Shown here: positions 1 through 23,791 of the stretch, in pieces | Numbering within the stretch: position 1 is the first letter of the stretch | Layout: each line of letters opens with the position of its first letter | NCBI GenBank assembly: GCA_018819105.1 | Contig: JAHJQV010000052.1 | Coordinates: 1 to 64,000, forward strand | Source of the DNA: Gammaproteobacteria bacterium | Lineage (GTDB): Bacteria > Pseudomonadota > Gammaproteobacteria > Xanthomonadales > Wenzhouxiangellaceae | DNA length: 64,000 nucleotides | Reading direction: 5' to 3' | The notes under the pieces: generated by a model | What the model was told of the DNA's origin: nothing | Seen by the model: the letters and a program-made list of their open reading frames with translations, nothing else | The model's database searches: none | Program-made: the position numbers and the translations under genes

Positions 1-68
1 CTGGATATGATTTTTTTCAGCAGTTTAATTTCATCTTTACTTAAATTGATCTTTATAGGTGCTGGCAT
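1..68 (-). CDS. IS630-family transposase, N-terminal fragment (cut by window edge)
   Basis: Read leftward from the ATG at 66-68, the frame stays open to the edge and gives 22 residues beginning MPAPIKINLSKDE. This is the usual opening of IS630-family transposases: M-P-A-P, then a charged helix. Only the start is visible, so the catalytic DDE residues cannot be checked. A TATACT-like -10 hexamer lies on the minus strand at 101-106. The frame sits directly 3' of a lipoprotein gene that ends abruptly, which fits an insertion sequence entering that gene. Family assignment rests on a short N-terminus and is moderate. Confidence 0.55.
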   Translation of the reverse strand, partial: MPAPIKINLSKDEIKLLKKIIS

Positions 69-140
69 ACTGGGCTCGGTTGGTCATTGAGTATGCCGAT
101 AGTATAACATTTCTTGATTAAGTTTAGGACACTACACTAG
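1..140 (-). mobile_element. Left-edge insertion sequence (IS630-like), one end only
   Basis: The region holds the start of a transposase frame (1-68), its leader, and a junction with a truncated CsgG-like gene near 131-143. Compared with the intact paralogue at 7114-8109, the protein match stops at Val-Val-Asp-Ala-Thr and foreign codons follow. A TA dinucleotide, the IS630 target, occurs at the junction. The other end of the element is outside the window, so its terminal repeats and TA duplication cannot be confirmed. Confidence 0.5.
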
Positions 141-678
141 TAGCATCAACCACACGAAGATCAATCGCCATATGGGCTGATCGACTACCTCCGGCGATGG
201 CACCAAGGATGCCGCCACCAAATCCACCGACCCCTCCTCTGCTACCGCTGGAATTGTCCATAAACTCAGTCACTGCAGCAACAATCAACAGTTCTGCACC
301 TTCCACCTCACCGATCACCGCCTCTGTACCTTGTTTGATACGGCCACTCGCACCCAGATCCTGCTCACTAAGTACGGAATCAAGGGTCTGACGCTCAAGA
401 ACGATATACCGCCCCGAGTTGACCAATGCCGTGGTAAGCATATCTGCCATGCCATCACCGATAGATGAGTTATACCAGTTGTTCGAATCAGCTGATTTAT
501 TCTCAAAGCGCGCTACAGCAATGCGGGCCTTAGGTCCATTGTAAGCTTCTGCCTGTGCAGCTTGAATGTCTTGACCAGAGCCTTGCCGTACATTGGTGGT
601 TGTGCCAGCCCCGCTTGGGCAACCTGTGATGAATACCGATGAGGCCAGCAATAAGCAAATTGTGATATTTCGTTTCAT
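124..678 (-). pseudogene. CsgG/TolB-N-like lipoprotein, 3' end lost to IS insertion
   Basis: The start at 678 (MKRNITICLLL) gives a lipoprotein signal with lipobox F-I-T-G-C. An upstream extension of the frame has no signal-like sequence. The mature part (about 165 residues) matches the paralogue at 7114-8109 nearly residue for residue, including PKARIAVARFENK, SIGDGMADMLTTAL and the Gly-rich GGVGGFGGG stretch. The match ends after VVDAT, and four foreign codons plus TAA follow. The distal half and the SH3 domain of the paralogue are absent. It lies 3' of the FHA-ABC transporter gene on the same strand, so it probably belonged to that operon. Its codons are AT-richer than those of the paralogue. 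A folded, exported product is doubtful. Confidence 0.8.
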
Positions 679-802
679 TGAACTTCCCCGCGTGAGCGTT
701 GCAAATATTAAACACCTATAACAAACGACATTAATGGATAAGTCACTGAGTAGTGCTATCTGGATAATGCAGTACCTGAAAGTAGCCATGATTTGCTTAT
801 GG

Positions 803-3370
803 CTACATCTTGAATCTCCTTACGATCAACCAGCGTGTAAGCGTCAGTACTGTAATCGACTGAACCAGGAGATAAACCAAACCTTTGTAGTATACTTGAC
901 GACCGAATTCGAATCCCATCTGATTTTTGACTAGATCACCAATCCAGCTGTAATGTGGTCGATCTGGAAGATCAAACGATGCAGTCAAAAGCATTTCAAA
1001 ACCCCACCTAGATGGCAACAGATCCGCGATTCGTTTCATTGCAACTTCCATGCCAGCATAGAAATCCGGACCCAGCGCACCCGAAAGTACCAGCTGTGGT
1101 AAGACAACGACAACCGCAAGAACTACCGAAAGCTGGCCTCTAGTTGGATCCAATGCACTTACCAACAAACCAATAACACAAGCAGCCCAACTGACAGCAA
1201 TGAGTACAACATAGACCATCAACAAGTTCATCTCGGACAATTCAGGACGAAACGCACAGATCAGCAGAAACAGAGTAACCTGCATTGCGGTAAGACCAAA
1301 AAGGAATGGCAACTTGGAGAGCAAATAATCATTTACATTCAACCCTGCCATGTATTCTCTGCGAAACAATGCCCGCTCCGAAGATAGCTCCATACAGGCC
1401 ATTAAGGTTCCTGTAAAAGATGCCATCATGACGTACATCAAGAGCACACTTAACGGTATTGGAAGATTGATAATGTTTGCGTATTTGATGGAATACAGTA
1501 TTGATACAGCATCAGCATCACTAGCGTTTCTCTCACTGAACACTGATGAAAGCACCTGTTCAATAACATTGTTGTTGCCGCCAACATGCTTGCTGATATC
1601 AATCTTGTTCTGTACTGCCTGATCAGCACTTAGGGGTTCAGGCGCAGACATTGACAGTGTAACCAATCCCAAAACCAATGGAACCAGCAGGTATACAAAG
1701 AAGTTTTTTGAGTTACTCGTCTTTATTGCCAAATGACGTTTCGCCAATACAAATATCGCGGCTGGTGAAAAAACTGCCCATTTAGGAATTGAACTAGATT
1801 TTTTAACAACACTATCCGATTTATTGTCAAGTATGCTAGGTATTACTGCAGTTATAGGCTGTTGGATGTTATTGTCATACAGTTCACTATGTTTGAATTG
1901 AGAAGCTGCCTTATCTGCAATCTGGAAAAGATATTGACTAGGCAATTCACTCGTCTGATTTGCTGACCTGCCTTCCAGATAGTCAAATATTTGGGTAGGC
2001 CTGGTAAGTTGATAACCTGCAAGCCTGCTGAAATATTCAAGTATTTGATCTGGGCTGCCATAGTAACATAAATTACCACGGGCCATGATTATTATCTTAT
2101 CCAGGAGTTGCAGGTTGTAAAGAATATGGGTTGTAATAAGAATTGTGGTTTTGTTATGCTTTGCCATATGCTTCAGGTGAAGCATCAACCTTTCCTCTGT
2201 ACTGGGATCCAAACCGGAAGTCGGTTCGTCCATGTATAGAATCCTTGGCTGTGTAATAAGCTCGGCAGCAACCGATACTCGCTTTCTTTGCCCACCACTT
2301 AGACTGGTAATGCGTTCATTCCTGACATGCTCAAGATTTAGATCTGCTATCGTTTGCCTGATTCTCTCCTCGCGCTCATCCTCACTTAAATCGGAAGGAA
2401 GCCTTAGCTTGGTTACATAATAAAGACTTTGATAAACTGTTAATTCACTGTATACCACATCATCCTGAGGAACATACCCGATGATATTTCGATACATATC
2501 ATAAGAGGCGTACAAGTCCGATGAATTTAGCAGGACATGTCCTGAAGAGGGTCGATTATAGCCATTAAGCGTAGTGAGCAGCGTGGTTTTACCAGCGCCA
2601 CTCGGCCCGAGGATTCCAATAAACTCGCCACCACGAATATCCAGACATACTTGCTTGAGAATGCTTTTCTTTACCCTGGCTCCTACAGTCAGGTCAAGAT
2701 TGACCGCCATCAAGCTCAGTGTAGATATGGGATTCTGAATAATAACTGATAAGACACCATCATGCCCGTCTTCAAATTTCAGATTTGTGTTGCCGACAGT
2801 AATAATATCGCCATGAGATATTGTGCGTTTTCTTATGCGCGATCCATTAATCCATGTACCATTGCTACTGCCAATGTCCTGTAGCATCCACGCCGAATTA
2901 CTTCTGATCAACTTGGCATGCTTGTTACTTATGCTTTTATCAAACGGAATAGCAACGTTGTTGTCCAGCTGCCTACCAATAAGTAGCGAATTGCGCGCGG
3001 GTAAGGTGAAATTACAGGAGTGAGATTCTGGTTTTGATATCAAGAATCTGAATGCGAGCAGGTCTGGGTTTCCAATGCCTATTATATCTCCGTCAGCCAA
3101 AACATGTGGCTGTCTGATTTTCAAATATCCCAAATAGATGCCATTTGTAGATCCCAAATCCTCTATCTGCCATTTGCCGTTCTTGTTCGATATCCTGCAG
3201 TGTTTGCGTGAGGTCAATTGATGATCCACAACAACTGCACATACCATTTCGTCTCTGCCGAGGATGTCCCCATCTGATATCTGCAAGCAGGTGTTAGAAT
3301 AATCTCCGTTGATCCCCAGCAGATAGGCGTGAGTGGCTGTTTGCACAGTCTGCATGGAGTGCGCACTCAT
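803..3370 (-). CDS. Double-FHA-domain ABC-2 transporter (ATPase and permease in one chain)
   Basis: The 855-residue protein has two N-terminal FHA domains, at about residues 30-100 (SRKHCRI, GSTNGIYLG) and 125-200 (ISNKHAKL, GSSNGTWING). An ABC ATPase follows at about 225-450, with Walker A GPSGAGKTT, signature LSGGQRKRVS, Walker B ILYMDEPTSGLDP and H-loop TTH. The C-terminal ABC-2/ABCG-type permease shows about six hydrophobic spans. The layout matches the mycobacterial Rv1747 type, whose FHA domains bind phosphothreonines made by a neighbouring kinase. That fits the Hanks kinase at 5080-6966. Substrate and direction are unknown; ABCG-type transporters are usually exporters. It follows the VWA gene on the same strand and is AT-rich relative to the backbone. 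Confidence 0.9.
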   Translation of the reverse strand: MSAHSMQTVQTATHAYLLGINGDYSNTCLQISDGDILGRDEMVCAVVVDHQLTSRKHCRISNKNGKWQIEDLGSTNGIYLGYLKIRQPHVLADGDIIGIGNPDLLAFRFLISKPESHSCNFTLPARNSLLIGRQLDNNVAIPFDKSISNKHAKLIRSNSAWMLQDIGSSNGTWINGSRIRKRTISHGDIITVGNTNLKFEDGHDGVLSVIIQNPISTLSLMAVNLDLTVGARVKKSILKQVCLDIRGGEFIGILGPSGAGKTTLLTTLNGYNRPSSGHVLLNSSDLYASYDMYRNIIGYVPQDDVVYSELTVYQSLYYVTKLRLPSDLSEDEREERIRQTIADLNLEHVRNERITSLSGGQRKRVSVAAELITQPRILYMDEPTSGLDPSTEERLMLHLKHMAKHNKTTILITTHILYNLQLLDKIIIMARGNLCYYGSPDQILEYFSRLAGYQLTRPTQIFDYLEGRSANQTSELPSQYLFQIADKAASQFKHSELYDNNIQQPITAVIPSILDNKSDSVVKKSSSIPKWAVFSPAAIFVLAKRHLAIKTSNSKNFFVYLLVPLVLGLVTLSMSAPEPLSADQAVQNKIDISKHVGGNNNVIEQVLSSVFSERNASDADAVSILYSIKYANIINLPIPLSVLLMYVMMASFTGTLMACMELSSERALFRREYMAGLNVNDYLLSKLPFLFGLTAMQVTLFLLICAFRPELSEMNLLMVYVVLIAVSWAACVIGLLVSALDPTRGQLSVVLAVVVVLPQLVLSGALGPDFYAGMEVAMKRIADLLPSRWGFEMLLTASFDLPDRPHYSWIGDLVKNQMGFEFGRQVYYKGLVYLLVQSITVLTLTRWLIVRRFKM

Positions 3371-3570
3371 CTGGAGTCACCGACAACCTGAGCAGCCAGG
3401 CCTGCAGAGGCTAACCTGAGCATGCAAGGACAGCCCAGCAGGCTTGCGCCACAGGAATCCTCAACATCAAATACCGCCGCGCAGGCGATATGAGCTAACA
3501 GACACTCTGCGGGTGGTAATGTGTGCTTGATCATTAATGCAATCATTCCATCGACAGCAAACATCAAGTC

Positions 3571-3589
3571 GGGGAGCGCGCGGCTCCCC
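3571..3589. other. GC-rich hairpin between VWA and FHA-ABC genes
   Basis: Perfect 7-bp arms GGGGAGC (3571-3577) and GCTCCCC (3583-3589) enclose a 5-nt GCGCG loop. It lies in the 256-bp gap between two co-directional minus-strand genes. No T-run follows on the minus strand, so a simple intrinsic terminator is unlikely. It could be an attenuator or mRNA-stabilising hairpin. The rest of the gap holds only a TTG-started 74-codon frame (3367-3591) that I do not accept. Confidence 0.45.
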
Positions 3590-3626
3590 AACTCACAATG
3601 CGCGTAATGTACTTTTGACCGTCAAA

Positions 3627-4736
3627 TCAATCGATATTTACACATCTTTGGACATATGAAGTTGCATCTCTGCGCATCAGTCCTGCAAATTTCACAGCAT
3701 AATCGTCGCACATCTTTTTGATAACAGGGAAGCTTATCAGAGACATGGCATCGTAGCTAACATCTTCAAAGCGAATCCTGCCGCTCTGATTCGGCCATTC
3801 CAGACCAACCTTCATATTGTGCTTTTCACCGTCAACCGGCAGGTCTGATAGAAATGTGACGACATAATCACCTTGCAGTATGGAATGAACATTCTCTACT
3901 GCTGGTGTCATCATTTCAAAGCTGGTTCGTACGTCGAAATATTTGCCCATTGAATTGCGGGATATGGCCTGAAGGTTAAGCAAGTGCGCCGGGTCAATCT
4001 TGGTGTAGGCGACACTGTAGACTGGCACCGGAACTTCCATTTGACTTATGCGACCCATCAAATCCGACCTGGTCAATGCGCTGCCTTCATCTTTACCATC
4101 TGAAAATACCAAAACAGCAGTAGAACTTATGTTCACGGCTTCTTGAGACGAAGTGCCCCCCTGAGCGGCAACCATGCTCATCTGCATCGCTGTAGCTATG
4201 CCGTCATACAGTCGGGTAGTGTTACCGATTGCATCAAGATCGGCCAGGCGCCGCGCCAAATACTCTTTGTTCCGTTCAAAGTCAGATACCAATGTGAAAC
4301 CGGCTACTGAATCATCCAGTGCGATGATTGCCATCTGATCCTGAGGACGTTTGAAGTCTATGTATCTTGCTACGGCTTCCAACGCTGCGTTGAAGGGCGG
4401 GCCTTGCATGGTCTTACTGGTGTCCAAGACAACAATGGTCCTGATGGTGTCACTTCTGCCGCGCATGGATTCCACAGTGTAGGGCGTTTTCTCAATATCT
4501 TGTACCGGCTTCCCTTTGATCAGCAATCCAATGTTTTGGGTGTTCACATTGAGTAACGGATCCATCTTCTCGTCGTACGTTCTCATGTAGATTTGTACAA
4601 ATGGATACAAGGTTGAGTCTGTTTTGTAGACTTTGAATCCGAATCCATCCGGCGTCTGCTGCGCGAAAGTAGATTGCGCACACATAAGCAAGAGCATGCA
4701 CGCTGCTTGCGATGTCCTTAATCGTATTGTTTTCAT
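3627..4736 (-). CDS. Secreted von Willebrand factor A domain protein
   Basis: The start at 4736 (MKTIRLRTSQ) gives a typical Sec signal ending near STFA-QQ and has a GGGAG ribosome site about 8 bases upstream. The longer upstream frame is not signal-like. The mature protein (about 345 residues) carries a VWA fold at about residues 110-320. Its MIDAS metal site is readable: VVLDTSKTM (D-x-S-x-T), the threonine of NTTRLYDG and the aspartate of VFSDGKDEGS. VWA domains bind protein ligands through this metal. Kinase/VWA pairings are known, as in PpkA proteins. This gene diverges from the kinase gene and heads the operon leading to the FHA-ABC transporter, so a periplasmic partner of that transporter is a reasonable inference. 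Confidence 0.85.
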   Translation of the reverse strand: MKTIRLRTSQAACMLLLMCAQSTFAQQTPDGFGFKVYKTDSTLYPFVQIYMRTYDEKMDPLLNVNTQNIGLLIKGKPVQDIEKTPYTVESMRGRSDTIRTIVVLDTSKTMQGPPFNAALEAVARYIDFKRPQDQMAIIALDDSVAGFTLVSDFERNKEYLARRLADLDAIGNTTRLYDGIATAMQMSMVAAQGGTSSQEAVNISSTAVLVFSDGKDEGSALTRSDLMGRISQMEVPVPVYSVAYTKIDPAHLLNLQAISRNSMGKYFDVRTSFEMMTPAVENVHSILQGDYVVTFLSDLPVDGEKHNMKVGLEWPNQSGRIRFEDVSYDAMSLISFPVIKKMCDDYAVKFAGLMRRDATSYVQRCVNID

Positions 4737-5079
4737 TGATGTAGGCTCCCGAGTGTCGTGAATTTTATGAATAAGGACGCGTACTGTCGCGCGCATTGAG
4801 CGCGTGTGACAGAGAATCACATCCTGCCATGAATCGAGCTTGGGAGCAGATTGCAGTTCAATCCCTATTCCCCCGCTAGAGATTTATAGCAACCATATAC
4901 GCTTATGTCAAGCTGTTTTTCCCCACTTTCGACCTCGCAATATCGTTGTCATATTTGTGATGACCCACTCCGTCATCACATCCTGCGCCTCATGTGAGGC
5001 GCGTGCTCGCATGATCATGTTGCATTCTCGGGCAAACAGAAGTAGCATTGCTAAAGGGAAATGCGTAGGTAGCGACGTC
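4737..5079. promoter_or_regulatory. Divergent promoter region with three perfect inverted repeats
   Basis: This 343-bp AT-rich space separates the VWA operon from the kinase gene. It holds three inverted repeats: CGCGC/GCGCG (4790-4794 and 4800-4804), TGTGATGAC/GTCATCACA (4956-4964 and 4972-4980, 7-nt spacer) and GCGCCTCA/TGAGGCGC (4985-4992 and 4995-5002, 2-nt spacer). The middle repeat looks like a dimeric regulator site; the last looks more like a hairpin. The kinase reading frame extends back to 4840, but that stretch has no protein-like composition, so I treat it as untranslated. Confidence 0.5.
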
Positions 5080-6966
5080 ATGCGAAGTACTCTTGGGCGG
5101 TATCAAATCCTGGATGAACTGGGCAGAGGGGGCATGGGCATTGTGTATAAGGCACTCGACCCCAAACTCGATCGATTCGTTGCCATCAAATGCATGTCCG
5201 ACGAACTCTCAAAAAACGAACTCAAAGTTACAGCCTTTCTACGCGAAGCCAGACATGCTGCGTCCTTGTCCCATCCAAATGTTGTCCAGGTCTTCAACAC
5301 TGATGAATCTTCCGGCATTCCCTATCTTGTCATGCAGTTCGTTGACGGTGATACGCTATCCTCTTATCTGCATCGTCGTGGATCTTTATCACAAAGCGAG
5401 GCACTCAGGATTATTCATCAGGCTGGTATTGCATTAGAAGCGGCATTCGATGTTGGCATACTTCATCAGGATGTAAAACCTGGTAACATCATGTTAGACG
5501 CAAAAAACCATGTATATCTTACTGATTTCGGAATAGCCAAGGTTGCAAACGAAGGCTCTGATAATAATACGATTGTAGGTACACCATCATACATGGCTCC
5601 TGAACTGTTCCGGCGAGCAGGCTCAAGCATCAAGTCTGACATCTATTCTCTGGGAATGGTTTTGTTCGAGATATTAAATGGCAAACCTTATTTTTCTTCT
5701 GAATCCACGAAAGATATAGTTGTAAAGCAGACCAGGGCGGATTTTCCTGATTTCAAGAATCTGAATCACGATTTGAACCCATCCCTTCTGTTGCTCCTGA
5801 GAAAGATGACTGCTCCCGATCCGGCGCTGCGGTATGCAAATTATCGTGAATTGATTATTGATATCGATTCCTGTAAAGAAACCCTATCCAGCAATCCTGG
5901 AAATCATGCTGATATTTCAACTGACAGCGCACCAACATCAACCCAGGCAATCACTCGTGAGGAACTTGATCTCATCGGCAACATCCATGCAACCCAAACT
6001 GTAAGCATGCCGCTAATGCAAAGGCGCAAACTTTGGATGGCTGCTTCTCTGGCTGGCTTGATCATCACCAGCACCTTGACCCTGATAAAATTTGGCCCTG
6101 ATATTGGTACTGAAATTCGTGATCTGGTGAGCAGTCAGTCTGATGATTCGGGCACAGCTACCACAGTTAGCCTGGCCACCACCCCTGCCACCACTGGCGC
6201 TGATTCAACCGTGCCAGCCACGTCTCTACCTGCTCACACGGGGACACTGGCCTCGGCACCAGGCATCAACTCCGATTCACAATATGTTCCAGCACCAGGC
6301 TATCAGAGCAGTCCTGGTTATACTGACTCCAGCACCAGTGCAGTAGCCTTGCTGGATAAACTAAGAGCAGACAAGCAAAAAAATGTGGGCACCCGCACCG
6401 ACAGTACTGGCAATGCCTTCGAGCCAGCACACATCGCTGCAAGCCCGAACGCCAAGCCGGAGTCGAAGCCAGCCATTGTACAGAAGGCTACACCAGCACC
6501 CTCATCACCTCAAGCTCAGACACCCACCAAAACGAGCATCGTGGCAATGGGTGACGATGCTTTGAACTCGTCGCTGAAATCAAGCATGGAGGCAGAGTTA
6601 CAATCGCGCGGACTGAACATTCTTGATTCTGCTTTTATTCACGGTCTGAACGATCAGGTTGCTGCCGGCTCACTCAATTTATCACAGCTGAGTAAGTCGG
6701 CCACCAGGGATGGAGTACGCTATCTGGTCGTTATAGAATCCTCACCTGCCGGCTCTCAACAGCTGGAATACTACGGCAGGCAATCGACCGCATACACCAC
6801 TATGGTCAACATGAAATGTTACGACTTGGTCAATCTTAGTACCGTTACCACGGTACCCGCAAAACAGATCATGTACACTTCACTGAATGCTTCGAAACAG
6901 GCCAACGAGGTGGTACGTGCCTCTGCATCGAGCATATTTTCACGGCTTTCTGTGGCCAGCGGCTGA
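5080..6966 (+). CDS. Membrane Ser/Thr protein kinase (Hanks type) with C-terminal periplasmic domain
   Basis: The start at 5080 (MRSTLGRYQIL) puts the kinase fold at the N-terminus, as in other bacterial kinases, and follows a GGTAG-type site. Kinase motifs in order are Gly-loop GRGGMGIVYKA, VAIK lysine, HQDVKPGN (HRD variant with Gln), LTDFGIAK and MAPE. One membrane span (LWMAASLAGLIITSTLTLI) lies near residue 320. A Thr/Pro/Ala-rich linker of about 170 residues follows. The last 140 residues begin AMGDDALNSSLKSSMEAEL. Their spacing resembles the SIGDGMADMLTTAL region of the CsgG-like lipoproteins in this window, suggesting a related TolB-N-like fold; this is inference. Likely targets are the FHA-ABC operon products. 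The HQD change is tolerated in active kinases. Confidence 0.93.
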   Translation: MRSTLGRYQILDELGRGGMGIVYKALDPKLDRFVAIKCMSDELSKNELKVTAFLREARHAASLSHPNVVQVFNTDESSGIPYLVMQFVDGDTLSSYLHRRGSLSQSEALRIIHQAGIALEAAFDVGILHQDVKPGNIMLDAKNHVYLTDFGIAKVANEGSDNNTIVGTPSYMAPELFRRAGSSIKSDIYSLGMVLFEILNGKPYFSSESTKDIVVKQTRADFPDFKNLNHDLNPSLLLLLRKMTAPDPALRYANYRELIIDIDSCKETLSSNPGNHADISTDSAPTSTQAITREELDLIGNIHATQTVSMPLMQRRKLWMAASLAGLIITSTLTLIKFGPDIGTEIRDLVSSQSDDSGTATTVSLATTPATTGADSTVPATSLPAHTGTLASAPGINSDSQYVPAPGYQSSPGYTDSSTSAVALLDKLRADKQKNVGTRTDSTGNAFEPAHIAASPNAKPESKPAIVQKATPAPSSPQAQTPTKTSIVAMGDDALNSSLKSSMEAELQSRGLNILDSAFIHGLNDQVAAGSLNLSQLSKSATRDGVRYLVVIESSPAGSQQLEYYGRQSTAYTTMVNMKCYDLVNLSTVTTVPAKQIMYTSLNASKQANEVVRASASSIFSRLSVASG

Positions 6967-7061
6967 GACCATCAGTTGTTGTTGGCATGGTTTTTTGATC
7001 AAGAATTCGCCCCTGTACAACAGCGATGACCGGAGATTCGCTTTCCATGAAGTCACATGTC

Positions 7062-7093
7062 AAAACAAAGCCCGGTGAACCGGGCTTTGTTTT
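7062..7093. terminator. Bidirectional intrinsic terminator
   Basis: A perfect 14-bp stem (7062-7075 and 7080-7093) has a TGAA loop. A-rich and T-rich flanks on the two sides make it functional in both directions. It sits between the convergent kinase gene (ends 6966) and CsgG-like lipoprotein gene (ends 7114). Confidence 0.92.
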
Positions 7094-7113
7094 GTAACAA
7101 GCAAGCAGGACTT

Positions 7114-8109
7114 CTACTGCACCGACACGGTGTAGGCGGCGGCGACCCAGCCGGTTCGACCCTGCGCATCACGCACCTCTATCCAGTCACCGGCGCGGGT
7201 CAGCACATCAACAATGCTGCCAGAAGTCAGTGAAAACTTGGCGGGATTGTCGGATCCTGGGCCGCTGCGCACGTTCAGCGAACTGGCAGTGATGACCACG
7301 CGTTCGCCAGTACCAGATACACTGCTGGCTGCAGGGGCCGCTGCCGGGCTGCTGCCGCCATGGCGCAGGTATTCACCCGGGGTCACTGAGATGACGTAAT
7401 TGACCGCCTCGTTGATGACCTGGCGCAATGCTTTTTCACGCGGCGTGTTCTTCCACGACTGCAGTCCGCCACCCAGCGCACCGCCACCGAAATAACCGCC
7501 CAGCGCACCGCCAATGTTGAAATCCTTGGCTTCGCCTTCGACACTGGTCGCAGCCAGAATGCGGCTGGTGGTGGCATCCACCACGCGCAGATCGATCGCC
7601 ATGTGCGCCGACTTGGAGCCGCCGGCGATTGCACCAAACACGCCACCACCGAAGCCGCCAACACCACCTCGGGTGCCACCGGAGTTGTCATCGAACTCGG
7701 TCACGGCGGCAACGATGAGCAGTTCGGCACCCTCGATTTCACCAATCGCAGCGGCCGTGCCCTGCTTGATGCGGCCACTGGCACCAAGATCCTGCTCGTT
7801 CAGTACCGTGTCCAGACTTTCGCGCTCGAGCACGATGTAGCGGCCGGAATTGACCAGCGCTGTGGTCAGCATGTCAGCCATGCCGTCACCGATGGACGGG
7901 TTGTACCAGTTGTAGGAATCGGCGGTTTTGTTCTCAAACCGGGCCACGGCGATGCGTGCCTTGGGCCCGTTGTAGGCCTCGGCCTGGGCAGCCTGGATGT
8001 TCTGTCCCGAGCCCTGACGGACATTGGTGGTGGTACCGGCACCGCTAGGGCATCCGGACAACAATGGCACTGTTGCCAGCACCAGCAAGATTGCAATGAC
8101 TCTATTCAT
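7114..8109 (-). CDS. CsgG/TolB-N-like lipoprotein with C-terminal bacterial SH3 domain
   Basis: The 331-residue protein starts MNRVIAILLVL with lipobox L-L-S-G-C, so it is predicted to be lipidated. Residues about 45-250 form a CsgG/curli-assembly-like domain (RIAVARFENK, DGMADMLTTALVNSGRYIVLER, Gly-rich loops GGVGGFGGGVFG and GGALGGYFGGGALGGG). The last 65 residues are a bacterial SH3 domain (SSLNVRSGPGSDN to GRTGWVAAAY), a fold that often contacts peptidoglycan or peptides. CsgG proper is an outer-membrane export pore, but pore formation here is unproven. It is host-like in composition, in contrast to its truncated copy at 124-678. It converges with the kinase gene across the terminator at 7062-7093. 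Confidence 0.85.
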   Translation of the reverse strand: MNRVIAILLVLATVPLLSGCPSGAGTTTNVRQGSGQNIQAAQAEAYNGPKARIAVARFENKTADSYNWYNPSIGDGMADMLTTALVNSGRYIVLERESLDTVLNEQDLGASGRIKQGTAAAIGEIEGAELLIVAAVTEFDDNSGGTRGGVGGFGGGVFGAIAGGSKSAHMAIDLRVVDATTSRILAATSVEGEAKDFNIGGALGGYFGGGALGGGLQSWKNTPREKALRQVINEAVNYVISVTPGEYLRHGGSSPAAAPAASSVSGTGERVVITASSLNVRSGPGSDNPAKFSLTSGSIVDVLTRAGDWIEVRDAQGRTGWVAAAYTVSVQ

Positions 8110-11265: not shown

Positions 11266-11463
11266 ATGCGCACAACCGTCAATATCGATGATCAGCTGCT
11301 GGCCGAAGCCCAGCGCATTACCGGGGTCAAGGAAAAAGCGACCTTGCTGCGCCAGGGTTTGCGCGCATTGATTGAGCGCGAGAGCGCGCGTCGGCTGGCA
11401 CGTTTGGGTGGCACAGAACCAGGGCTAGAGGCTGTTGCGCGGCGGCAAACTGATGCGGCGTGA
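11266..11463 (+). CDS. vapB: VapB-type antitoxin
   Basis: The start at 11266 (MRTTVNIDDQLL) gives a 65-residue protein with the ribbon-helix-helix opening of VapB (TTVNIDDQLLAEAQRITG) and an Arg-rich, acidic-tailed C-terminus that would occupy the toxin groove. The open frame extends further upstream through the mutM 3' end but is not protein-like there. The GTG of vapC overlaps its TGA stop by four bases, so the two are translationally coupled. The palindromes upstream are the likely autoregulatory site. Confidence 0.88.
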   Translation: MRTTVNIDDQLLAEAQRITGVKEKATLLRQGLRALIERESARRLARLGGTEPGLEAVARRQTDAA

Positions 11464-11828
11464 TCCTCGTTGACACAACGGTCTGGGTGGATCACCTGCG
11501 CGCCGATGACGCACAGCTTTCCGCATTGTTGCTCAGCAACCAGGTGCTGATGCACTCGTTTGTAATCGGAGAACTGGCCTGCGGCAACCTGCGCAACCGC
11601 GTCGAGTTGCTGACACTGCTGACCGATCTGCCCCAGGCACCGGTGGCCAGCGATGCTGAAGTGCTGTTTTTCATCGAACGGCACCGACTGATGGGGCGCG
11701 GCATTGGCTACATCGACGCCCATCTGCTGGCGGCCACGGCACTCGGTGATGCAGGCACCAGCTTATGGACGCGGGATCAACGCCTGGCCGCTTTGGCTGG
11801 TGAGTTGCAGCTTGGCATCAGGGTGTGA
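11460..11828 (+). CDS. vapC: VapC-type PIN-domain ribonuclease toxin
   Basis: The 122-residue protein starts at a GTG overlapping the vapB stop. The acidic PIN residues are visible: Asp in MILVDTTVWVD, Glu in SFVIGELACG, Asp in GIGYIDAHLLAA and Asp in LWTRDQRL. PIN toxins cut RNA, often tRNA or rRNA. VapB inhibits it and the complex represses transcription. The gene is full length with no lesion, so the pair is probably active. It sits at the left boundary of the defence block. Confidence 0.92.
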   Translation: MILVDTTVWVDHLRADDAQLSALLLSNQVLMHSFVIGELACGNLRNRVELLTLLTDLPQAPVASDAEVLFFIERHRLMGRGIGYIDAHLLAATALGDAGTSLWTRDQRLAALAGELQLGIRV

Positions 11829-12078: not shown

Positions 12079-14556
12079 ATGGCCATCAAGAAATCCGAAC
12101 TCTACTCTTCCCTGTGGGCTTCCTGCGACGAACTGCGCGGGGGTATGGACGCGTCCCAATACAAGGATTACGTCCTGTTCATGCTGTTCATTAAATACAT
12201 ATCGGACAAATACGCCAATTCAGACGACTACACCCCACCTGTCATCATTCCTGACCGGGCCGGTTTTGCAGACATGGTCAAGCTCAAGGGCAAGAGTGAC
12301 ATCGGCGACAAGATCAACACGCAGATCATCCAGCCGCTAATCGAGGCAAACCAGCGCCTGGCGCGCAGCGACTTCCCCGACTTCAACGACCCCAACAAGC
12401 TCGGCGAAGGCAAGGCGATGGTCGATCGCCTGACCAACCTGATCAGTATTTTCCAGAAACCGGCGCTGAACTTCGCCAAAAATCGTGCCGAGCATGATGA
12501 CATCCTGGGTGATGCCTACGAGTATCTGATGCGCCATTTCGCCCAGGAAAGCGGCAAGAGCAAGGGCCAGTTCTACACCCCGTCCGAGGTCAGCCGCATC
12601 ATGGCTCAGGTGATCGGTATTTCGCCCGACAACACCAAGGCCGCCACCACCGCCTATGATCCGACCTGTGGCTCCGGCTCACTATTGCTGAAAGTCGCCG
12701 GTGAGGCCGGCAAGCACATCACCCTGGAAGGGCAGGAGAAGGATGTCACCACAGCAGGCCTGGCGCGCATGAACATGATCCTGCACGACTTCCCCACGGC
12801 CAACATCGTGCAGGGCAACACCCTGGCCAACCCCAAGTTCAAGGATGGCGAGGCACTGCGCACCTACGACTATGTGGTCGCCAATCCGCCCTTCTCGGAC
12901 AAGGGCTGGAGCGCCGGCATCACGCCGGAAGACGACCCCTTCCAGCGTTTCGCCTGGGGCGCGCCGCCGGCCAAGCAGGGCGACTATGCCTACTTGCTGC
13001 ACATCGTCCGCTCGATGAAATCCAGCGGCAAGGGCGCGGTCATCCTGCCCCACGGCGTGCTGTTCCGCGGCAATGCCGAGGCCGCCATCCGCAAGCAACT
13101 GGTGCGCTCGGGTTATCTGAAGGGCATCATCGGCCTGCCGGCCAACCTGTTCTACGGCACCGGCATCCCCGCCTGCATCCTGGTGCTGGACAAGGACAAC
13201 GCCCAGGCTCGCCGTGGCATTTTCATGATCGATGCCTCCAAGGGCTTCATAAAAGACGGCAACAAGAACCGCCTGCGCGAGCAGGACATCCACCGCATCG
13301 TCGATACCTTCAACAAGCAGGCCCCGAACGAAAACAAGGATATGCCGCGCTACGCCCGCATGGTGCCCTTCGACGAAATCGCCGACCCGAAGAACGACTA
13401 CAACCTCAACCTGCCGCGCTATATTGATTCCAGCGAGCCGGAAGACCGCCACGACCTGCACGCCCACATGAACGGAGGCATCCCCGAGCGCGACATCGAC
13501 GGCGACCCGACCGCCATCCCGCCAACGCCGGGCCTGGCTGCCTTCTGGCAGGTCTTCCCGACCCTACGCCGCTGCCTGTTCCGCGCCAACGGCCAACCCG
13601 GTTACTCCGAGCTTGCGGTGGAGCAGGCCGCCATCAAACCCACCATCCTGGAGCACGATGAGTTCGCCGCCTTTCGAGGCCGCGTCACCGCGCTGTTCGA
13701 GGACTGGCGAAACCGCAACCGAGCGGTGCTCAAGGGCTTTGGCATTGACGGCCAGCCCAAGGCCCTAATCACAGAGATTGGTGAGCACCTACTGGAAACC
13801 TTCCGCCTCGCGCTCCTACTCGACCCCTACGACATCTACCAGCACCTGATGGACTACTGGTACGACACCCTGCAGGACGACGCCTACGCAATCGCCGCCG
13901 ACGGCTGGGTGGCCAAGCCCCGCCGCGTGCTCGAAGAAGTCAAAGCCGGCAAGAAAAAGGGGCAGATGAAAGACAAGGGCTGGACCTGCGACCTGATCCC
14001 CAAGCGCTACATCGTCACCCGCTATTTCAAAGCACAGCAGGCCGAACTGGACGCCCTGCAAAGCAACCTCGACACCGCCGCCGCCCAGCGCACCGAGCTG
14101 GAAGAAGAACACGGCGGCGAGGACGGCGCCTTCGCCGAGCTGGACAAGATCAACAAGGGCGAAGTGACCAAACGCCTCAAGGAAATCAAGGGCGACCCCG
14201 AGTACGCTGACGAGGCCAAGGTCCTAAAGCAATGGACCCAGCTCGACAAACGCCAGAGCGAGCTGAAAACGCAGATCAAGAACGCCGACGCCGCCCTCGA
14301 CCAGCTCGCATACGAGAAATACCCCGAACTCAGCGAGGACGAAATCAAGACCCTGGTGGTGGACGACAAATGGCTCACCGCCCTGGAAACCGCCGTGCAG
14401 AACGAACTGGAGCGCGTTTCCCAGACCCTGACCGGCCGCGTGCGCCAACTGGCCGAACGCTATGAAACTCCGCTGCCGCAATTGAGCCAGCAGGTTGAGG
14501 TGTTGTCCGCTCGCGTGGACGAGCATCTAAAAACCATGGGGGTCGCGTGGGGATGA
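12079..14556 (+). CDS. hsdM: Type I restriction-modification methyltransferase subunit, long form
   Basis: The 825-residue protein opens with the HsdM N-terminal helical domain (MAIKKSELYSSLW). The N6-adenine methylase core follows: SAM motif I DPTCGSGSLL near residue 193 and catalytic NPPF near residue 269. Family members are usually about 500 residues. Here a C-terminal extension of about 300 residues ends in charged, coiled-coil-like helices (residues about 640-800). Long HsdM forms are known, and the extension probably helps join S and R subunits. It pairs with HsdS (ATGA overlap) and, 6 kb downstream, HsdR. It methylates adenine in the sequence HsdS recognises. Confidence 0.95.
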   Translation: MAIKKSELYSSLWASCDELRGGMDASQYKDYVLFMLFIKYISDKYANSDDYTPPVIIPDRAGFADMVKLKGKSDIGDKINTQIIQPLIEANQRLARSDFPDFNDPNKLGEGKAMVDRLTNLISIFQKPALNFAKNRAEHDDILGDAYEYLMRHFAQESGKSKGQFYTPSEVSRIMAQVIGISPDNTKAATTAYDPTCGSGSLLLKVAGEAGKHITLEGQEKDVTTAGLARMNMILHDFPTANIVQGNTLANPKFKDGEALRTYDYVVANPPFSDKGWSAGITPEDDPFQRFAWGAPPAKQGDYAYLLHIVRSMKSSGKGAVILPHGVLFRGNAEAAIRKQLVRSGYLKGIIGLPANLFYGTGIPACILVLDKDNAQARRGIFMIDASKGFIKDGNKNRLREQDIHRIVDTFNKQAPNENKDMPRYARMVPFDEIADPKNDYNLNLPRYIDSSEPEDRHDLHAHMNGGIPERDIDGDPTAIPPTPGLAAFWQVFPTLRRCLFRANGQPGYSELAVEQAAIKPTILEHDEFAAFRGRVTALFEDWRNRNRAVLKGFGIDGQPKALITEIGEHLLETFRLALLLDPYDIYQHLMDYWYDTLQDDAYAIAADGWVAKPRRVLEEVKAGKKKGQMKDKGWTCDLIPKRYIVTRYFKAQQAELDALQSNLDTAAAQRTELEEEHGGEDGAFAELDKINKGEVTKRLKEIKGDPEYADEAKVLKQWTQLDKRQSELKTQIKNADAALDQLAYEKYPELSEDEIKTLVVDDKWLTALETAVQNELERVSQTLTGRVRQLAERYETPLPQLSQQVEVLSARVDEHLKTMGVAWG

Positions 14557-15872
14557 ATAGTGAAGAGATGGGAGTGCGGGATGCCTCTCCGGGGTATGCG
14601 CCGCAGGTGGGTATGCCCGTGGTGCCCGAGGGCTACAAGCAGACCGAGGTGGGGATGATTCCTGAGGATTGGGAGGTTAAGCGATTACGTGAAATTTCAC
14701 CCCGCCAGTCCGTGGGGTTAGTCATTAATCCATCCACATACTTTGATCAGCAAGGCACTGTTCCAATGTTGGTTGGCTCGAACGTACACGAAAATTTTAT
14801 TGATTGGTCCTCCGCAAAGAAAATTACGGAAGAATCAAATTCGAGGCTGCCAGCTTCACAACTATTCCCTGGCGACTTGGTCACGGTGAGAGTTGGCGAT
14901 CCAGGAGTAACAGCAGTGGTGCCTCCGGAAATCGGCAGCTTGAACTGCGCCTCGATGATGATAGTCCGTGTGAGCTCTTCATTTGATTCAGATTGGCTTT
15001 GCCATTTGATGAATTCGGAGCACGGTCGCGGCCAGGTCAGGAATGTGCAGTACGGGACTGCTCAAAAGCAGTTTAATATCTCTCATGCGATAGATTTCGT
15101 TTACCCAGTTCCTCCAATAAAGGAACAACGCGCCATCGCCACCGCTCTGAGCGATGTGGATGCCCTGCTGGAGGCGCTGGACCGCCTGATCGCCAAAAAG
15201 CGCAACATCAAACAGGCCACCATGCAACAACTCCTCACCGCCCAAACCCGCCTGCCGGGGTTTGAGGGAGTGTGGCAGATGAAGTTGCTCACGGAGCTGG
15301 CAGAGCTAAGGCCTGGCATCAATAAGCCGCTTAGTGAGATGGGGAGTGGAGTTCTGTACGTGACTGTCCAGGACCTCTACGATGGCACGTCAATACCAAC
15401 AAGCAAACTAAGCCGCATCAAGGTATCACCAATAGAGATAGATTCGAAGTGTCTTGCAGTTGGTGACATAGTCTTCGGTAAATCGTCCGTGAAGCGAGAT
15501 GGCATTGGTTACCCAAGCCAGTTTCTAGGCTGTGATGAGCCTGTGGTTTTCTCGGGTTTCACTTACCGGGCTCGTGCTTATCCAAAATCCGCCGATGCGA
15601 GTTTCTTGTTCTATGCGCTTCGGACGGAACAGACACGTAGGTGGCTCATCGATAATTCGCAGGCATCCGCACTGACGAATATCAATCAGAAAATAGCCGA
15701 TGCAATACCAGTCAGAGTGCCACCAACTGTCAACGAGCAAAGAGCCATCGCCAACGTCCTCTCCGAGATTGACACAGAACTCGAAGCCCTGCAGCAGCAT
15801 CGGGCTAAAACGGTCCTTCTCAAGCAGTCCATGATGCAGGAGCTACTGACCGGGAGGACACGGCTGGTATGA
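14553..15872 (+). CDS. hsdS: Type I restriction-modification specificity subunit
   Basis: The chosen ATG at 14553 overlaps the hsdM stop as ATGA; a GTG at 14547 is the alternative. The protein of about 440 residues has the two-half layout of HsdS. Target-recognition domain 1 follows GYKQTEVGMIPEDWEV. Conserved spacer helix 1 begins PPIKEQRAIATALSDVDALL. Domain 2 follows, then a second spacer repeat, VNEQRAIANVLSEIDTELEAL, ending LLTGRTRLV. The domains set the bipartite DNA target; I cannot predict it. The recognition-domain DNA is AT-richer than the conserved spacers, as expected for exchangeable domains. Confidence 0.95.
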   Translation: MNSEEMGVRDASPGYAPQVGMPVVPEGYKQTEVGMIPEDWEVKRLREISPRQSVGLVINPSTYFDQQGTVPMLVGSNVHENFIDWSSAKKITEESNSRLPASQLFPGDLVTVRVGDPGVTAVVPPEIGSLNCASMMIVRVSSSFDSDWLCHLMNSEHGRGQVRNVQYGTAQKQFNISHAIDFVYPVPPIKEQRAIATALSDVDALLEALDRLIAKKRNIKQATMQQLLTAQTRLPGFEGVWQMKLLTELAELRPGINKPLSEMGSGVLYVTVQDLYDGTSIPTSKLSRIKVSPIEIDSKCLAVGDIVFGKSSVKRDGIGYPSQFLGCDEPVVFSGFTYRARAYPKSADASFLFYALRTEQTRRWLIDNSQASALTNINQKIADAIPVRVPPTVNEQRAIANVLSEIDTELEALQQHRAKTVLLKQSMMQELLTGRTRLV

Positions 15873-17182
15873 CCGTTTCTGAGTTGTTCTCTGAGTTCGT
15901 TTCGAACTTGGCGATTACAAACACGGACACCATCGGCACCCGATATGGGGAGCTAACGTCGGCTTTAAATAAGCAGTTCCGGGACACAGACTCCAAGACG
16001 GCGAACACCCTCCAGGTGGGTTCCTTCGGGAGGAGAACAGGAATTAACGGCATATCTGACCTCGACATGCTGTACATAATGCCGAAGGGAAAGTGGGCTG
16101 ACTACAAGGATGGAAAGCAGCTGAAACTGCTTCAGGATGCTAAGTCCGCGATTCTGAAACGTTATCCATCAACGAAAGTTCGGGTGGACCGTCTGGTGGT
16201 GACGGTGACCTATGCGAACTTCCATATCGAGGTGCAGCCCGTTTTCGAGCAGGATGACCGGAGCTATCTTTACCCGGATACGAAAAACGGTGGAAGCTGG
16301 AAGAACACCAAGCCCAGAGAGGAGATGGAAGCATTTGCTGCAATGGATTCCAAAAAAAACGCCAATCTCCGTCGATTGTGCAAAATGGCTAGGGCTTGGA
16401 GGAATCAGCACGGTGTGGCAATGGGTGGGCTGCTCGTTGACACGCTGGCATACAAGTTTCTTGACCAGACATCCGAATATGATAGTAGGGGATATGCTTC
16501 TTACGATTGGCTTAGTCGGGACTTCTTCAAGTTTCTGTCCGAGCTGCCGGAACAGAATGAATACGCCGCACCGGGGAGTCGTCAGCGTGTAAAAGTGAAA
16601 AAGAGGTTTCAGCGCAAAGCGAAAAAGGCTTACAAACTTTGCTTAAGAGCTATTGAGGCTGAGGGGAGCAAAGGAGTAAACGCTAAATGGAAGAAAGTCT
16701 ACGGAAGACCGTTTCCTGCTGCACCGATCGTTGATCAGGAAGCGCTCGCTGAAGCAGCTCGTATGAATTGGGAGAACACTGAAGAGTTGATCGAGTATAG
16801 GTACCCAATCGATATTAAGGAATTTCTCAAGATTGATTGCGAGGTGAAGCAGAGCGGGGATCGAGAGTTCTCGCTCAGGAGAATGCTCGCCGGCCGGACC
16901 CCTCTACGAACAAAGAGGTCCCTGCGCTTCCATGTTTCAGAAATATCTGTGGAGCCACCATTTGAAGTTTACTGGAAAGTCCTAAATAGAGGGGATGAAG
17001 CGCGCAGAAGGAATTGTATTCGTGGTCAGATCATGCCAGACACTGGCGGAAGGCAAAGGAAGGAAACCACAGATTTTCAAGGGGACCATATCGTCGAGTG
17101 CTACTGCGTTAAAGACGGTGTCGTTGTAGCTAAGGATAGAATTCTAGTCCCGATCATTCCAGAGGCTAGTGGCGATGAATAG
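15869..17182 (+). CDS. CD-NTase (cGAS/DncV-like, SMODS) with C-terminal AGS-C-like sensor
   Basis: This is a 437-residue nucleotidyltransferase. The signature Gly51-Ser52 (VGSFGRRTG) is followed by Asp64-x-Asp66 (SDLDMLYI) and a third acidic residue, Glu121, in NFHIEVQPVF. These are the GS-(n)-DxD-(n)-D/E residues of the cGAS/DncV/OAS superfamily that coordinate metal and NTPs. The last 100 residues (SLRFHVSEISVEPPFEVYWKVLNRG) resemble the AGS-C sensor domain of some SMODS proteins. CD-NTases make cyclic di- or trinucleotides on phage infection to activate a co-encoded effector. The next gene is a 2TM SLATT-type protein, overlapping by 8 bp. The start overlaps the hsdS stop as ATGA. No E1/E2/JAB or HORMA/TRIP13 genes are nearby, so it resembles a minimal type I CBASS. 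The nucleotide product cannot be read from sequence. Confidence 0.9.
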   Translation: MTVSELFSEFVSNLAITNTDTIGTRYGELTSALNKQFRDTDSKTANTLQVGSFGRRTGINGISDLDMLYIMPKGKWADYKDGKQLKLLQDAKSAILKRYPSTKVRVDRLVVTVTYANFHIEVQPVFEQDDRSYLYPDTKNGGSWKNTKPREEMEAFAAMDSKKNANLRRLCKMARAWRNQHGVAMGGLLVDTLAYKFLDQTSEYDSRGYASYDWLSRDFFKFLSELPEQNEYAAPGSRQRVKVKKRFQRKAKKAYKLCLRAIEAEGSKGVNAKWKKVYGRPFPAAPIVDQEALAEAARMNWENTEELIEYRYPIDIKEFLKIDCEVKQSGDREFSLRRMLAGRTPLRTKRSLRFHVSEISVEPPFEVYWKVLNRGDEARRRNCIRGQIMPDTGGRQRKETTDFQGDHIVECYCVKDGVVVAKDRILVPIIPEASGDE

Positions 17183-17735
17183 AGAAGAGCAGATGCTGGA
17201 AGGGCAGATCCGAGAATGCTATGGTCGGGTCGTTTACTCGCACAAGACTCATGAAAGGTGCGCGGATATTATGCTGACCAAAAATGGCCGGATAAAGCTG
17301 GCTCAAATTGTGTTGTCGGCATTCATTACCGGTGGAGTGATATCAACCTTTTTTGACTCCGGAGTCTGGGGTTCTGGAATAAGCGTCGTCTTGTCCTCAA
17401 TGCTCCTGGCGATAAACGCCTACACCAAAGACTACGACCTTGGGGAGATCGCGCAGAAGCACAGGCATGCTGGCGCTGAGCTTTGGATCGTTAGGGAGAA
17501 ATATCTGTCATTGCTGACAGATCTGCGGATTGGGGACTTGTCTCTCACAGTTCTCCGAACTAGGAGGGACGAGATAATGGAGGAGTTGCATTCCGCATAC
17601 CAAGGGTCACCTAGCACTAATTCCACGGCCTACAGAGAAGCTCAGAAGGCTCTAAAAGAGTTGGAGGATATGACATTCTCTGACGAAGAGATTGACGCAT
17701 TCCTCCCTCGAGAGTTGAAGCGTAATAATCCATGA
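17175..17735 (+). CDS. SLATT-type two-transmembrane effector
   Basis: The start at 17175 (MNREEQMLEGQ) has GAGG nine bases upstream; a GTG at 17169 is also possible. The 186-residue protein has an N-terminal amphipathic helix and two adjacent membrane spans (IKLAQIVLSAFITGGVIS and WGSGISVVLSSMLLAI) at about residues 40-85. A long helical, charged C-terminal half follows (DLGEIAQKHRHAGAELWIVREKY). This is the SMODS- and SLOG-associating 2TM (SLATT) layout, thought to form nucleotide-gated pores that kill or arrest infected cells. Overlap with the CD-NTase gene (8 bp) and the following gene (ATGA) makes it the natural effector of that enzyme. I do not assign a numbered SLATT subfamily. Confidence 0.82.
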   Translation: MNREEQMLEGQIRECYGRVVYSHKTHERCADIMLTKNGRIKLAQIVLSAFITGGVISTFFDSGVWGSGISVVLSSMLLAINAYTKDYDLGEIAQKHRHAGAELWIVREKYLSLLTDLRIGDLSLTVLRTRRDEIMEELHSAYQGSPSTNSTAYREAQKALKELEDMTFSDEEIDAFLPRELKRNNP

Positions 17736-18301
17736 GGAGCAACGAGTTACTTGAGACTGTGGCCTGCGGCGAAGACAGCCGCCACCAGTTCAAGCGCAAT
17801 GCCAACAATGCCGATGGCCTTGCTGCCGAACTGGCTGCCTTTGCCAACAGCGGTGGTGGCCAGCTGTTTCTCGGTGTGAAAGACAACGGCAGCATTACCG
17901 GGCTGGATGCGGCCGATGTGCGTCGGCTAAATCAGATATTGAGCAATGCCGCCTCCCAGCATGTGCGTCCGCCGGTGCACCCGCTGACTGAGAATGTGCA
18001 GACCGATCAGGGCATTGTCATGGCGGTGGAGGTGCCCGACGGGCTCGCCAAGCCCTATCTGGACCATCAGGGCCGCATCTGGGTCAAGCAGGGGGCGGAC
18101 AAGCGCCATGTGACCTCGCGCGAGGAAATGCAGCGCATTCTCCAGCGATCCGCGCTGGTCCATTCCGATGTGGTGCCGGTGACGGGCACTTCGACTGAGG
18201 ATATCGCTGAAAAGGCTTTTGTCTCGTATTTTGACCAGCGTTACGGCGAGTGTGGTGAGTTTTCCAGCTTCACGCGGCTGACAGTAAAGAGAGTGACCTG
18301 A
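17732..18301 (+). pseudogene. AlbA_2/RecG-like ATP-binding regulator, N-terminal fragment
   Basis: The first 165 residues are a clear AlbA_2 (Schlafen-like) domain: GEDSRHQFKRNANNADGLAAELAAFANSGGG is the family opening (quoted in parts: GEDSRHQFKRN, then ADGLAAELAAFANSGGG), and VKQGADKRHVTSREEMQRI closes it. Full-length relatives run to about 480-500 residues, with a HATPase_c_4 domain and a winged helix. Here the frame stops after 189 residues (YGECGEFSSFTRLTVKRVT). The matching C-terminal part is found at 20083-20670. The gene appears split, with its middle replaced by the gene at 18301-20025. The fragment could still be translated, since it is coupled to the SLATT gene by ATGA. Confidence 0.75.
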
Positions 18302-20025: not shown

Positions 20026-20048
20026 CTAGCGGCCATGGTTTAGCTAAG
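20021..20048. other. Inverted repeat after the AlbA_2 gene
   Basis: Perfect 8-bp arms CTTAGCTA (20021-20028) and TAGCTAAG (20041-20048) are separated by 12 nt. The left arm includes the stop codon of the 18301-20025 gene, and AAAAA follows the right arm. It marks the junction between the inserted gene and the orphan C-terminal fragment. It may be a weak hairpin or a trace of the recombination event. Confidence 0.5.
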
Positions 20049-20082
20049 AAAAATACGTAACCTATTGATTTATATGTTTTCT

Positions 20083-20670
20083 ATGAAAGTATTCAGCAAA
20101 GGGCTTAGTCAACGCAGTCGGGTGGAATTCGTCAGTCCTGGCCAGCTGCCGGACAGCTTGAGCGCTGAGGATATCCGCTGGGGCAAGACCATCCGCAACC
20201 CCACGCTGACCGAGCACGCCAGCCATATCCTGCCATACTGCGGCATGGGCAGCGGCATTCCTCGCGCTCTGGCAGCCTGGCCGCAGATCGACCTGGTGGA
20301 TGATCCGGCGGGCAACAAGTTCAGCGCTGTTGCGTGGCGACCGGAGGCGGAGTGGGCTTCTGATGCAGGTACCCCTCAAGTCACCCCTCAAGTCACCCCT
20401 CAAGTCACCCCCCAAGTCACCCCCCAAGTCACCGGGGAAGTCGAGCGATTGATGGGGGTGTTGAAAGGGGAGATGAAACGCGCCGAAATTCAGCAGCTGC
20501 TGGGTCTGAAAGATCGCAAGCACTTTCAGGAAAAATACTTGCGCCCGGCGCTTGAGGCGGGTATTGTCGAGATGACCATTCCCGATAAGCCCCTGAGCAG
20601 CCGCCAGAAATACCGTCTGACTGAGGTCGGCAAAGCTCTGCTGAAGCCCCGCAAGGCCAGGAGGGAGTAA
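20083..20670 (+). pseudogene. AlbA_2/RecG-like regulator, C-terminal fragment
   Basis: From the ATG at 20083 (MKVFSKGLSQRS) the frame gives 195 residues. They match the second half of AlbA_2/HATPase_c_4 proteins: VEFVSPGQLPDSL, NPTLTEHASHILPYCGMGSGIPRAL, a TPQV repeat linker and a winged-helix end (KDRKHFQEKYLRPAL). The N-terminal domain and about 140 middle residues are missing; the N-terminal part is at 17732-18301. Upstream starts (TTG 20065, ATG 20074) have no convincing ribosome site. It ends 4 bases before hsdR, so translation here might still feed hsdR. Confidence 0.72.
20371..20430 (+). repeat. Five tandem 12-bp units (TPQV-type linker)
   Basis: The unit is ACCCCTCAAGTC, three exact copies followed by two with C in place of T, in phase with the reading frame. 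It encodes a (TPQV)n linker between the HATPase-like and winged-helix parts. The same peptide repeat is common in this protein family and varies in number, so slipped-strand length change is expected. Confidence 0.9.
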
Positions 20671-20674
20671 CCGC

Positions 20675-23600: not shown

Positions 23601-23791
23601 ACTTACCGCCGAAAGTGTCTCTTGCCCTGAAACTAGATCGAGCCATGCGCGAGCAGGCACCAGCGGACTGGCGCGGCGACACGGCCAGAGAAAGTCAGGT
23701 CCTTAATGCCTTGTTTCCGATCATGGGGCGTGATCGCAAGGCGACACAGGCTGTGTTTGAACTGATCAAGAATCAGGCAAGCTATCCATGA
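20675..23791 (+). CDS. hsdR: Type I restriction endonuclease / translocase subunit
   Basis: The 1038-residue protein is full length for HsdR. The PD-(D/E)xK nuclease site is at about residues 137-158 ([18 protein letters not shown]). The superfamily 2 motor follows: Walker A TQGSGKSI near residue 283, DECHRTQ near 387 and GFTGTPL. The C-terminal helical region binds HsdM. With HsdM and HsdS it translocates and cleaves unmethylated DNA. It starts 4 bases after the AlbA C-terminal fragment and overlaps the next gene as ATGA. Separation from hsdMS by almost 5 kb of inserted genes in one operon is unusual. Confidence 0.96.

Follow-up and report, generated by a model that had tools for sequence, protein, structure and literature searches.

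A Hanks-type receptor kinase, an FHA-ABC protein, a VWA protein and CsgG-like lipoproteins as a possible trans-envelope signalling module in the Wenzhouxiangellaceae

A transmembrane kinase, an FHA-ABC protein, a VWA protein and an outer-membrane lipoprotein, encoded side by side in a member of the family Wenzhouxiangellaceae, may form a single trans-envelope phospho-signalling module that relays the condition of the cell envelope, a reading to which we give about an even chance. The genes lie at the beginning of a 64,000-nucleotide stretch of DNA (the window), which starts at base 1 of contig C45 of a 3.14 Mb genome (68 contigs, 98.7% complete). The first-pass annotation had proposed that the four protein families belong together, and the search for their co-occurrence returned two recurring sets: the kinase with the CsgG lipoprotein, often joined by the FHA-FHA-ABC protein, in the same order and orientation within the family, and the kinase with the FHA-ABC and VWA proteins in 28 loci from several phyla. 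All four did not recur together, as the VWA-bearing loci elsewhere never contain CsgG.

Using Pfam we confirmed all five ORFs between 124 and 8109 of the window at their coordinates, and the family assignments of the first-pass annotation hold (Table 1). One gene was not as described: the lipoprotein ORF at 124-789 is not a whole gene, being cut by an insertion element. Judging from the sequence, starts at 678 (csgG1), 4736 (VWA) and 5080 (kinase) are likelier than those of the ORF caller. The kinase gene diverges from the VWA gene and converges with csgG2. A proposed operon of VWA, FHA-FHA-ABC-2 and CsgG-like lipoprotein genes stands as to genes and orientation; a 13-bp hairpin without a convincing T-run (3595-3565) separates the VWA and FHA-ABC genes, so that a single transcript is not assured. 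The related lipoprotein placed beyond a convergent terminator was found there, as an intact csgG2 behind a terminator-like palindrome. Elsewhere, the window carries a type I restriction-modification operon (12079-24507; HsdM 12079-14556, HsdS 14547-15872, HsdR 20675-23791). The interval from HsdS to HsdR encodes a CBASS-type oligonucleotide cyclase (15869-17182, PADLOC Cyclase 1.4e-192) along with other ORFs. By eye, a small ORF at 11460-11828 resembles a VapC-type PIN-domain toxin, and the ORF immediately upstream may encode an antitoxin.

Table 1. Features of the module and its borders in the window
Feature	Position	Strand	Evidence or remark
IS element end interrupting csgG1	1..140	.	Repeated at other contig ends
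csgG1 ORF, CsgG domain	124-789	-	Pfam 7.5e-33
csgG1, 5' half only, from likely start	124..678	-	CsgG-like lipoprotein, cut after ...RVVDAT
FHA-FHA-ABC-2 half-transporter, 855 aa	803..3370	-	Six hydrophobic segments
FHA-ABC domains: FHA x2, ABC_tran, ABC2_membrane	803-3370	-	Pfam 1.7e-35 / 1.3e-31 / 1e-12
Second FHA domain of FHA-ABC, residues 130-193	2792..2983	-	Phosphothreonine-binding residues present
VWA ORF	3627-4820	-	Pfam VWA_2 3.8e-10
VWA protein from likely start, predicted periplasmic, signal peptide and MIDAS residues (DTSKT, SDG)	3627..4736	-	
Kinase ORF	4840-6966	+	Pfam Pkinase 1.8e-53
Hanks-type kinase, 628 aa from ATG 5080	5080..6966	+	VAIK / HQD / DFG, periplasmic C-terminus
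Kinase transmembrane helix (single), residues 398-416 of long ORF	6031..6087	+	
Kinase periplasmic sensor domain, predicted CsgG/PelC/TolB-N-like fold	6523..6966	+	AlphaFold2 and Foldseek
34-bp palindrome, terminator-like, between convergent kinase and csgG2	7061..7094	.	Self-match
csgG2, intact CsgG-like outer-membrane lipoprotein, lipobox LLSGC, C-terminal SH3b	7114..8109	-	Pfam CsgG 8.8e-49, SH3_3 1.2e-12

Within the Wenzhouxiangellaceae, full FHA-FHA matches were present in 12 of 43 genomes, the window's included, and in all 12 the FHA-FHA-ABC gene shares a contig with the gene of this kinase, adjoins it and is transcribed away from it. No other genome gave an FHA-FHA match at 1e-30 in one even sample of 369 genomes of the class. 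The kinase and CsgG genes converge within about 3 kb in 13 family genomes besides the window's (G006, G012, G016, G018, G020, G022, G025, G027, G031, G034, G425, G426 and G428), and the arrangement FHA-FHA-ABC (-), kinase (+), csgG (-) is reproduced exactly in G034 and in G016, the latter taken as the cultured strain Wenzhouxiangella AB-CW3 (PMC7691419). The trio occupies another chromosomal site in Wenzhouxiangella genomes than in the window. Such recurrence of a gene set across genomes points to an association beyond chance, and the idea of CsgG as a mere resident neighbour was dropped because the trio recurs in other family genomes. In G012, the FHA-FHA-ABC gene is followed by an ECF sigma factor and a TPR-bearing Hanks kinase resembling a PknS/EcfK pair (L137:13681-16763).

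The VWA protein has a different distribution. It was absent from the 60 relatives searched and occurs in no other family genome; homologues at 45-51% identity were found elsewhere, among them those of four genomes of the class at about 47-51%. Scanning genome contigs, we found VWA, FHA-ABC and kinase genes together in 28 loci of Gammaproteobacteria, Desulfobacterota and Hydrogenedentota, some of them cut by contig ends. Most also encode a glycine-zipper lipoprotein and an M48 protease, and none of the 28 has CsgG. Type A loci run FHA-ABC, zinc-ribbon kinase, VWA, glycine-zipper lipoprotein and M48 protease; where at least 5 kb of upstream DNA is available (n = 19), the FHA-ABC gene is in place in 18 loci and the kinase in all 19. 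Among the hosts are Methylotuvimicrobium buryatense 5G, Marichromatium gracile, Thiobaca trueperi, Thiococcus pfennigii and Desulfobacterota. The three type B loci (one Desulfobulbaceae, two Hydrogenedentota) have the VWA gene preceding the FHA-FHA-ABC gene with the kinase adjoining, and L036, one of the three, has a divergent kinase gene like that of the window. The best NCBIfam model for the type A M48 protease is BepA (5e-13, below cut-off). Because the type A partners resemble quality-control proteins, the signal may concern envelope assembly or damage. The intact MIDAS residues and signal peptide make a ligand-binding role for the VWA protein plausible. Among the type A modules, one on a contig labelled as a Klebsiella pneumoniae MAG (L046) is 67-89% identical to that of a groundwater gammaproteobacterium and is probably mis-binned. 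A Desulfobacteraceae locus (L055) has a kinase-VWA pair and, about 4 kb downstream, a separate FHA-ABC-kinase pair, a split or duplicated module.

The conserved GR, S-x-x-H and N-G alignment columns are present in both FHA domains of the window's FHA-ABC protein, whose nucleotide-binding domain (NBD) has intact motifs, GPSGAGKT (residue 255), LSGGQ (357) and DEP (379). A motif scan detected Walker A and LSGGQ in the window, in two of three type B and in all type A FHA-ABC proteins; in the Hydrogenedentota copy at L036 the first glycine of Walker A is gone. All three motifs, Walker A, signature and Walker B, were absent from all eight family homologues long enough to scan; in an alignment with the window and type B proteins, their Walker A is replaced (for example by LQRPRQATA), the signature is lost and the Walker B glutamate is missing.

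The state of these motifs bears on kinase-gated export, in which the FHA-ABC protein would export an envelope component once phosphorylated, a licensing proposed for Rv1747, the VWA protein would be a periplasmic adaptor and the CsgG protein would be the outer-membrane exit. CsgG is a secretion channel, and the motifs retained in the window and in types A and B (save the one glycine in L036) are consistent with transport, as are an ABCG-like sequence match and the view of Rv1747 as an exporter (PMC3908365). However, none of the NBD motifs survives in family homologues that have the same neighbours, the VWA-bearing loci lack CsgG, and CsgG-SH3 proteins also stand alone, without the module, in relatives. 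Since homologues without ATPase motifs occur in the same gene arrangement, export through CsgG is unlikely to be a function common to the family's FHA-ABC proteins. On the same grounds we part from the first-pass proposal of an exporter whose cargo leaves through CsgG; moreover, of the two lipoprotein genes it is the copy in the operon that is broken by the insertion element. We consider kinase-gated export rather unlikely, a weaker reading than trans-envelope phospho-signalling, which we favour.

In the window kinase, VAIK, DFG and the catalytic Asp and Asn are conserved; it has HQD where nearly all other compared kinases have HRD, so that the control of its activation loop may differ. Its sensor domain has no Pfam match. 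An AlphaFold2 model built from 24 diverse sequences had a mean pLDDT of 95.6, and the best solved structures in Foldseek were an LPHT-ring component, GNA1162, PelC, CT253, CsgG, FlgT, LptE and TolB, with moderate scores (E 4e-6 to 1e-3, TM 0.4-0.58). A CsgG/PelC/TolB-N fold is thus confidently predicted for the periplasmic domain. Sequence homology with CsgG was not found: a comparison of the sensor profile with the family CsgG profile was negative (hhalign probability 0.2%). The likeness is therefore one of fold only and may be distant or convergent. The sensor domain occurs in 90 of 250 genomes of the order, with few exceptions as the last part of a kinase frame of 600-800 aa. In many of these genomes the kinase adjoins housekeeping genes, and CsgG or FHA-ABC genes were not seen there, which argues for other uses of the kinase. 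In G047 (contig C14; L099:8560-9303) the sensor fold occurs as a secreted protein on its own, encoded downstream of genes that read as T6SS-like (TssM/TagF-like). An anti-phage role was discarded: the PADLOC kinase models (PD-T4-6) match the kinase only through its generic kinase domain, and the VWA and CsgG proteins gave no hit.

Copies of the first ~140 bases of the window, 99-100% identical, lie at the ends of six other contigs, and these bases belong to an element that we take to be IS630-like from its first residues. Contig C28 opens with the same terminal repeat as C45, followed by the missing 3' half of csgG1 with its SH3b domain (L014:142-597), hisIE and hisF. The two halves of csgG1, split between C45 and C28 behind a common repeat, indicate that the gene was broken by the insertion element; csgG1 is probably inactive and csgG2 whole. 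Both genes are direct repeats whose DNA is only 75-79% identical (blastn), which explains why a repeat search missed them, and the 3' region of csgG2, including the 34-bp palindrome, shares homology with the sequence that follows csgG1 on C28. The csgG2 product matches a solved CsgG structure at 6e-9 and fails the curated CsgG equivalog model (29.7 bits against a cut-off of 505). Curli partners were not found nearby; the neighbours read as HisIE, HyuA and MutM. CsgG-SH3 or a relative is present in 34 of 41 family genomes; a CsgG model from 10 sequences was poor (pLDDT 51) and unusable. Tandem csgG-SH3 duplicates without kinase or FHA-ABC genes between them were observed at L094, L096 and L097 (G015, G009 and G005, respectively).

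Trees indicated different origins for the parts of the cassette. The window FHA-ABC protein groups with type B (support 83/69), a grouping that is modestly supported given the long branches and only three type B loci. The kinase is placed in the sensor-kinase clade of the order (98/92), apart from the type B kinases, and is nearest to family kinases (up to 47% identity). For csgG1, each half analysed separately took a position inside the genus, together with csgG2 and the copy of the same-genus genome G001. With the ABC protein on the side of type B, and kinase and CsgG of family type, the window thus appears, by these sequence comparisons, to be a mosaic joining a foreign VWA and FHA-ABC pair to a family-type kinase and lipoprotein. 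In G001 the order is HisF-HisIE-csgG-HyuA-MutM, where csgG is single and the cassette is missing; the window has the cassette between two direct csgG copies at the HisIE-csgG-HyuA site, and we infer that it entered by recombination at csgG. The insert has a GC content of 43-49%, compared with about 61% around it, and csgG1 is GC-poor although its protein is genus-like.

This history also suits a reading in which the lipoprotein is a bystander: a cassette that came in through homologous recombination at csgG would leave copies on both sides, and only the kinase, FHA-ABC and VWA proteins would cooperate. Its support comes from the single csgG of G001, the direct repeats of the window and the lack of CsgG in type A and B modules. 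Against it, both the convergent kinase-csgG pair and the FHA-ABC/kinase/csgG trio are found again at another site in Wenzhouxiangella, and we regard a bystander lipoprotein as unlikely.

In the phospho-signalling module that we favour, the SH3b domain would hold the lipoprotein on the peptidoglycan, and the kinase sensor would read the state of the lipoprotein, at a guess through contact between like folds. Once the envelope is disturbed, the kinase would autophosphorylate and phosphorylate threonines on itself or on the FHA-ABC protein; the FHA domains would bind these phosphothreonines and dock or switch the ABC protein, and the VWA protein might clamp some periplasmic protein onto the complex. 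The ABC portion would be a switch or scaffold, ATP-powered in the window genome and unpowered in relatives, and not an exporter feeding a CsgG channel. In favour of this reading count the recurring gene neighbourhoods, the trees, the predicted sensor fold, the degenerate NBDs of family homologues, the PknF/Rv1747 pair and the low GC of the insert. Weighing against it are the negative comparison of sensor and CsgG profiles, the poor CsgG model, the many genomes of the order in which the kinase adjoins housekeeping genes, and the lack of VWA in other family genomes. For the family as a whole a more specific version can be put forward, although we think it improbable: the receptor kinase would sense the outer membrane by homotypic CsgG-fold contact with a CsgG-SH3 ring and signal to a pseudo-ABC FHA scaffold, an outer-to-inner relay made of recycled secretion parts.

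To our knowledge, the signals sensed by bacterial receptor kinases with uncharacterised periplasmic domains are largely open. For one such kinase a likely sensor fold, a neighbouring lipoprotein and a likely phospho-reader can now be named, and there are cultured carriers of both forms, Wenzhouxiangella AB-CW3 for the CsgG form and Methylotuvimicrobium buryatense and Marichromatium gracile for the VWA form.

We found no description of the gene set in a search limited to open-access papers, in agreement with the first-pass view that it is not a named system; several known systems share parts of it. PknS/EcfK of Xanthomonas citri has a transmembrane Hanks kinase and belongs to the same order. 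The periplasmic domain of PknS is of the TPR type and its target is a sigma factor (PMC13147305), and a PknS-type identity was rejected for the window kinase, whose periplasmic domain is different. The CsgG domain of the window lipoproteins places them near CsgG (curli), HfaB (holdfast), PelC, LpoB, TolB-N and GNA1162, and structure prediction gives the kinase's periplasmic domain the fold of the CsgG/PelC/TolB-N group. Unlike curli CsgG, the window lipoprotein adds SH3b and has no curli genes nearby, and the kinase domain differs from this group in being tethered to the inner membrane and lacking a CsgG sequence signal.

In the TagQRST-type pathway a kinase, an FHA reader, ABC proteins, a VWA protein and an outer-membrane lipoprotein span the envelope. 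The threonine phosphorylation pathway of the P. aeruginosa H1-T6SS has similar parts (PMC4348357), and the module resembles it loosely. By contrast with PpkA/PppA/Fha1/TagQRST, no T6SS or PP2C phosphatase was seen, VWA is separate from the kinase, FHA is fused to ABC, and the kinase C-terminus has another fold. That the module serves a type VI secretion system is highly improbable despite the parallel with PpkA-Fha1-TagQRST, a weak TagQ-model match of the type A glycine-zipper protein (0.00026) and the sensor-fold protein beside T6SS-like genes in G047, as the set has a separate VWA protein and no phosphatase and VipA/TssB (PF05591) had no match in the window's own, 98.7% complete genome while the positive control matched; a T6SS link was rejected for this genome.

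PknF/Rv1747 of Mycobacterium tuberculosis is the precedent for a kinase paired with an FHA-ABC protein: an adjacent transmembrane kinase and a two-FHA ABCG-type half-transporter in one chain, and Rv1747, which carries FHA domains, is a substrate of PknF (PMC3908365). The kinase and FHA-ABC protein seen here differ from that pair in several ways. PknF and Rv1747 form a two-gene operon, whereas the window genes are divergent with VWA between them; the window adds a VWA protein and an outer-membrane lipoprotein, and its kinase has another sensor. The NBD, which keeps its motifs in the window protein, is dead in the other Wenzhouxiangellaceae proteins scanned, and this degeneration suggests that Rv1747 and other FHA-ABC proteins could signal separably from transport.
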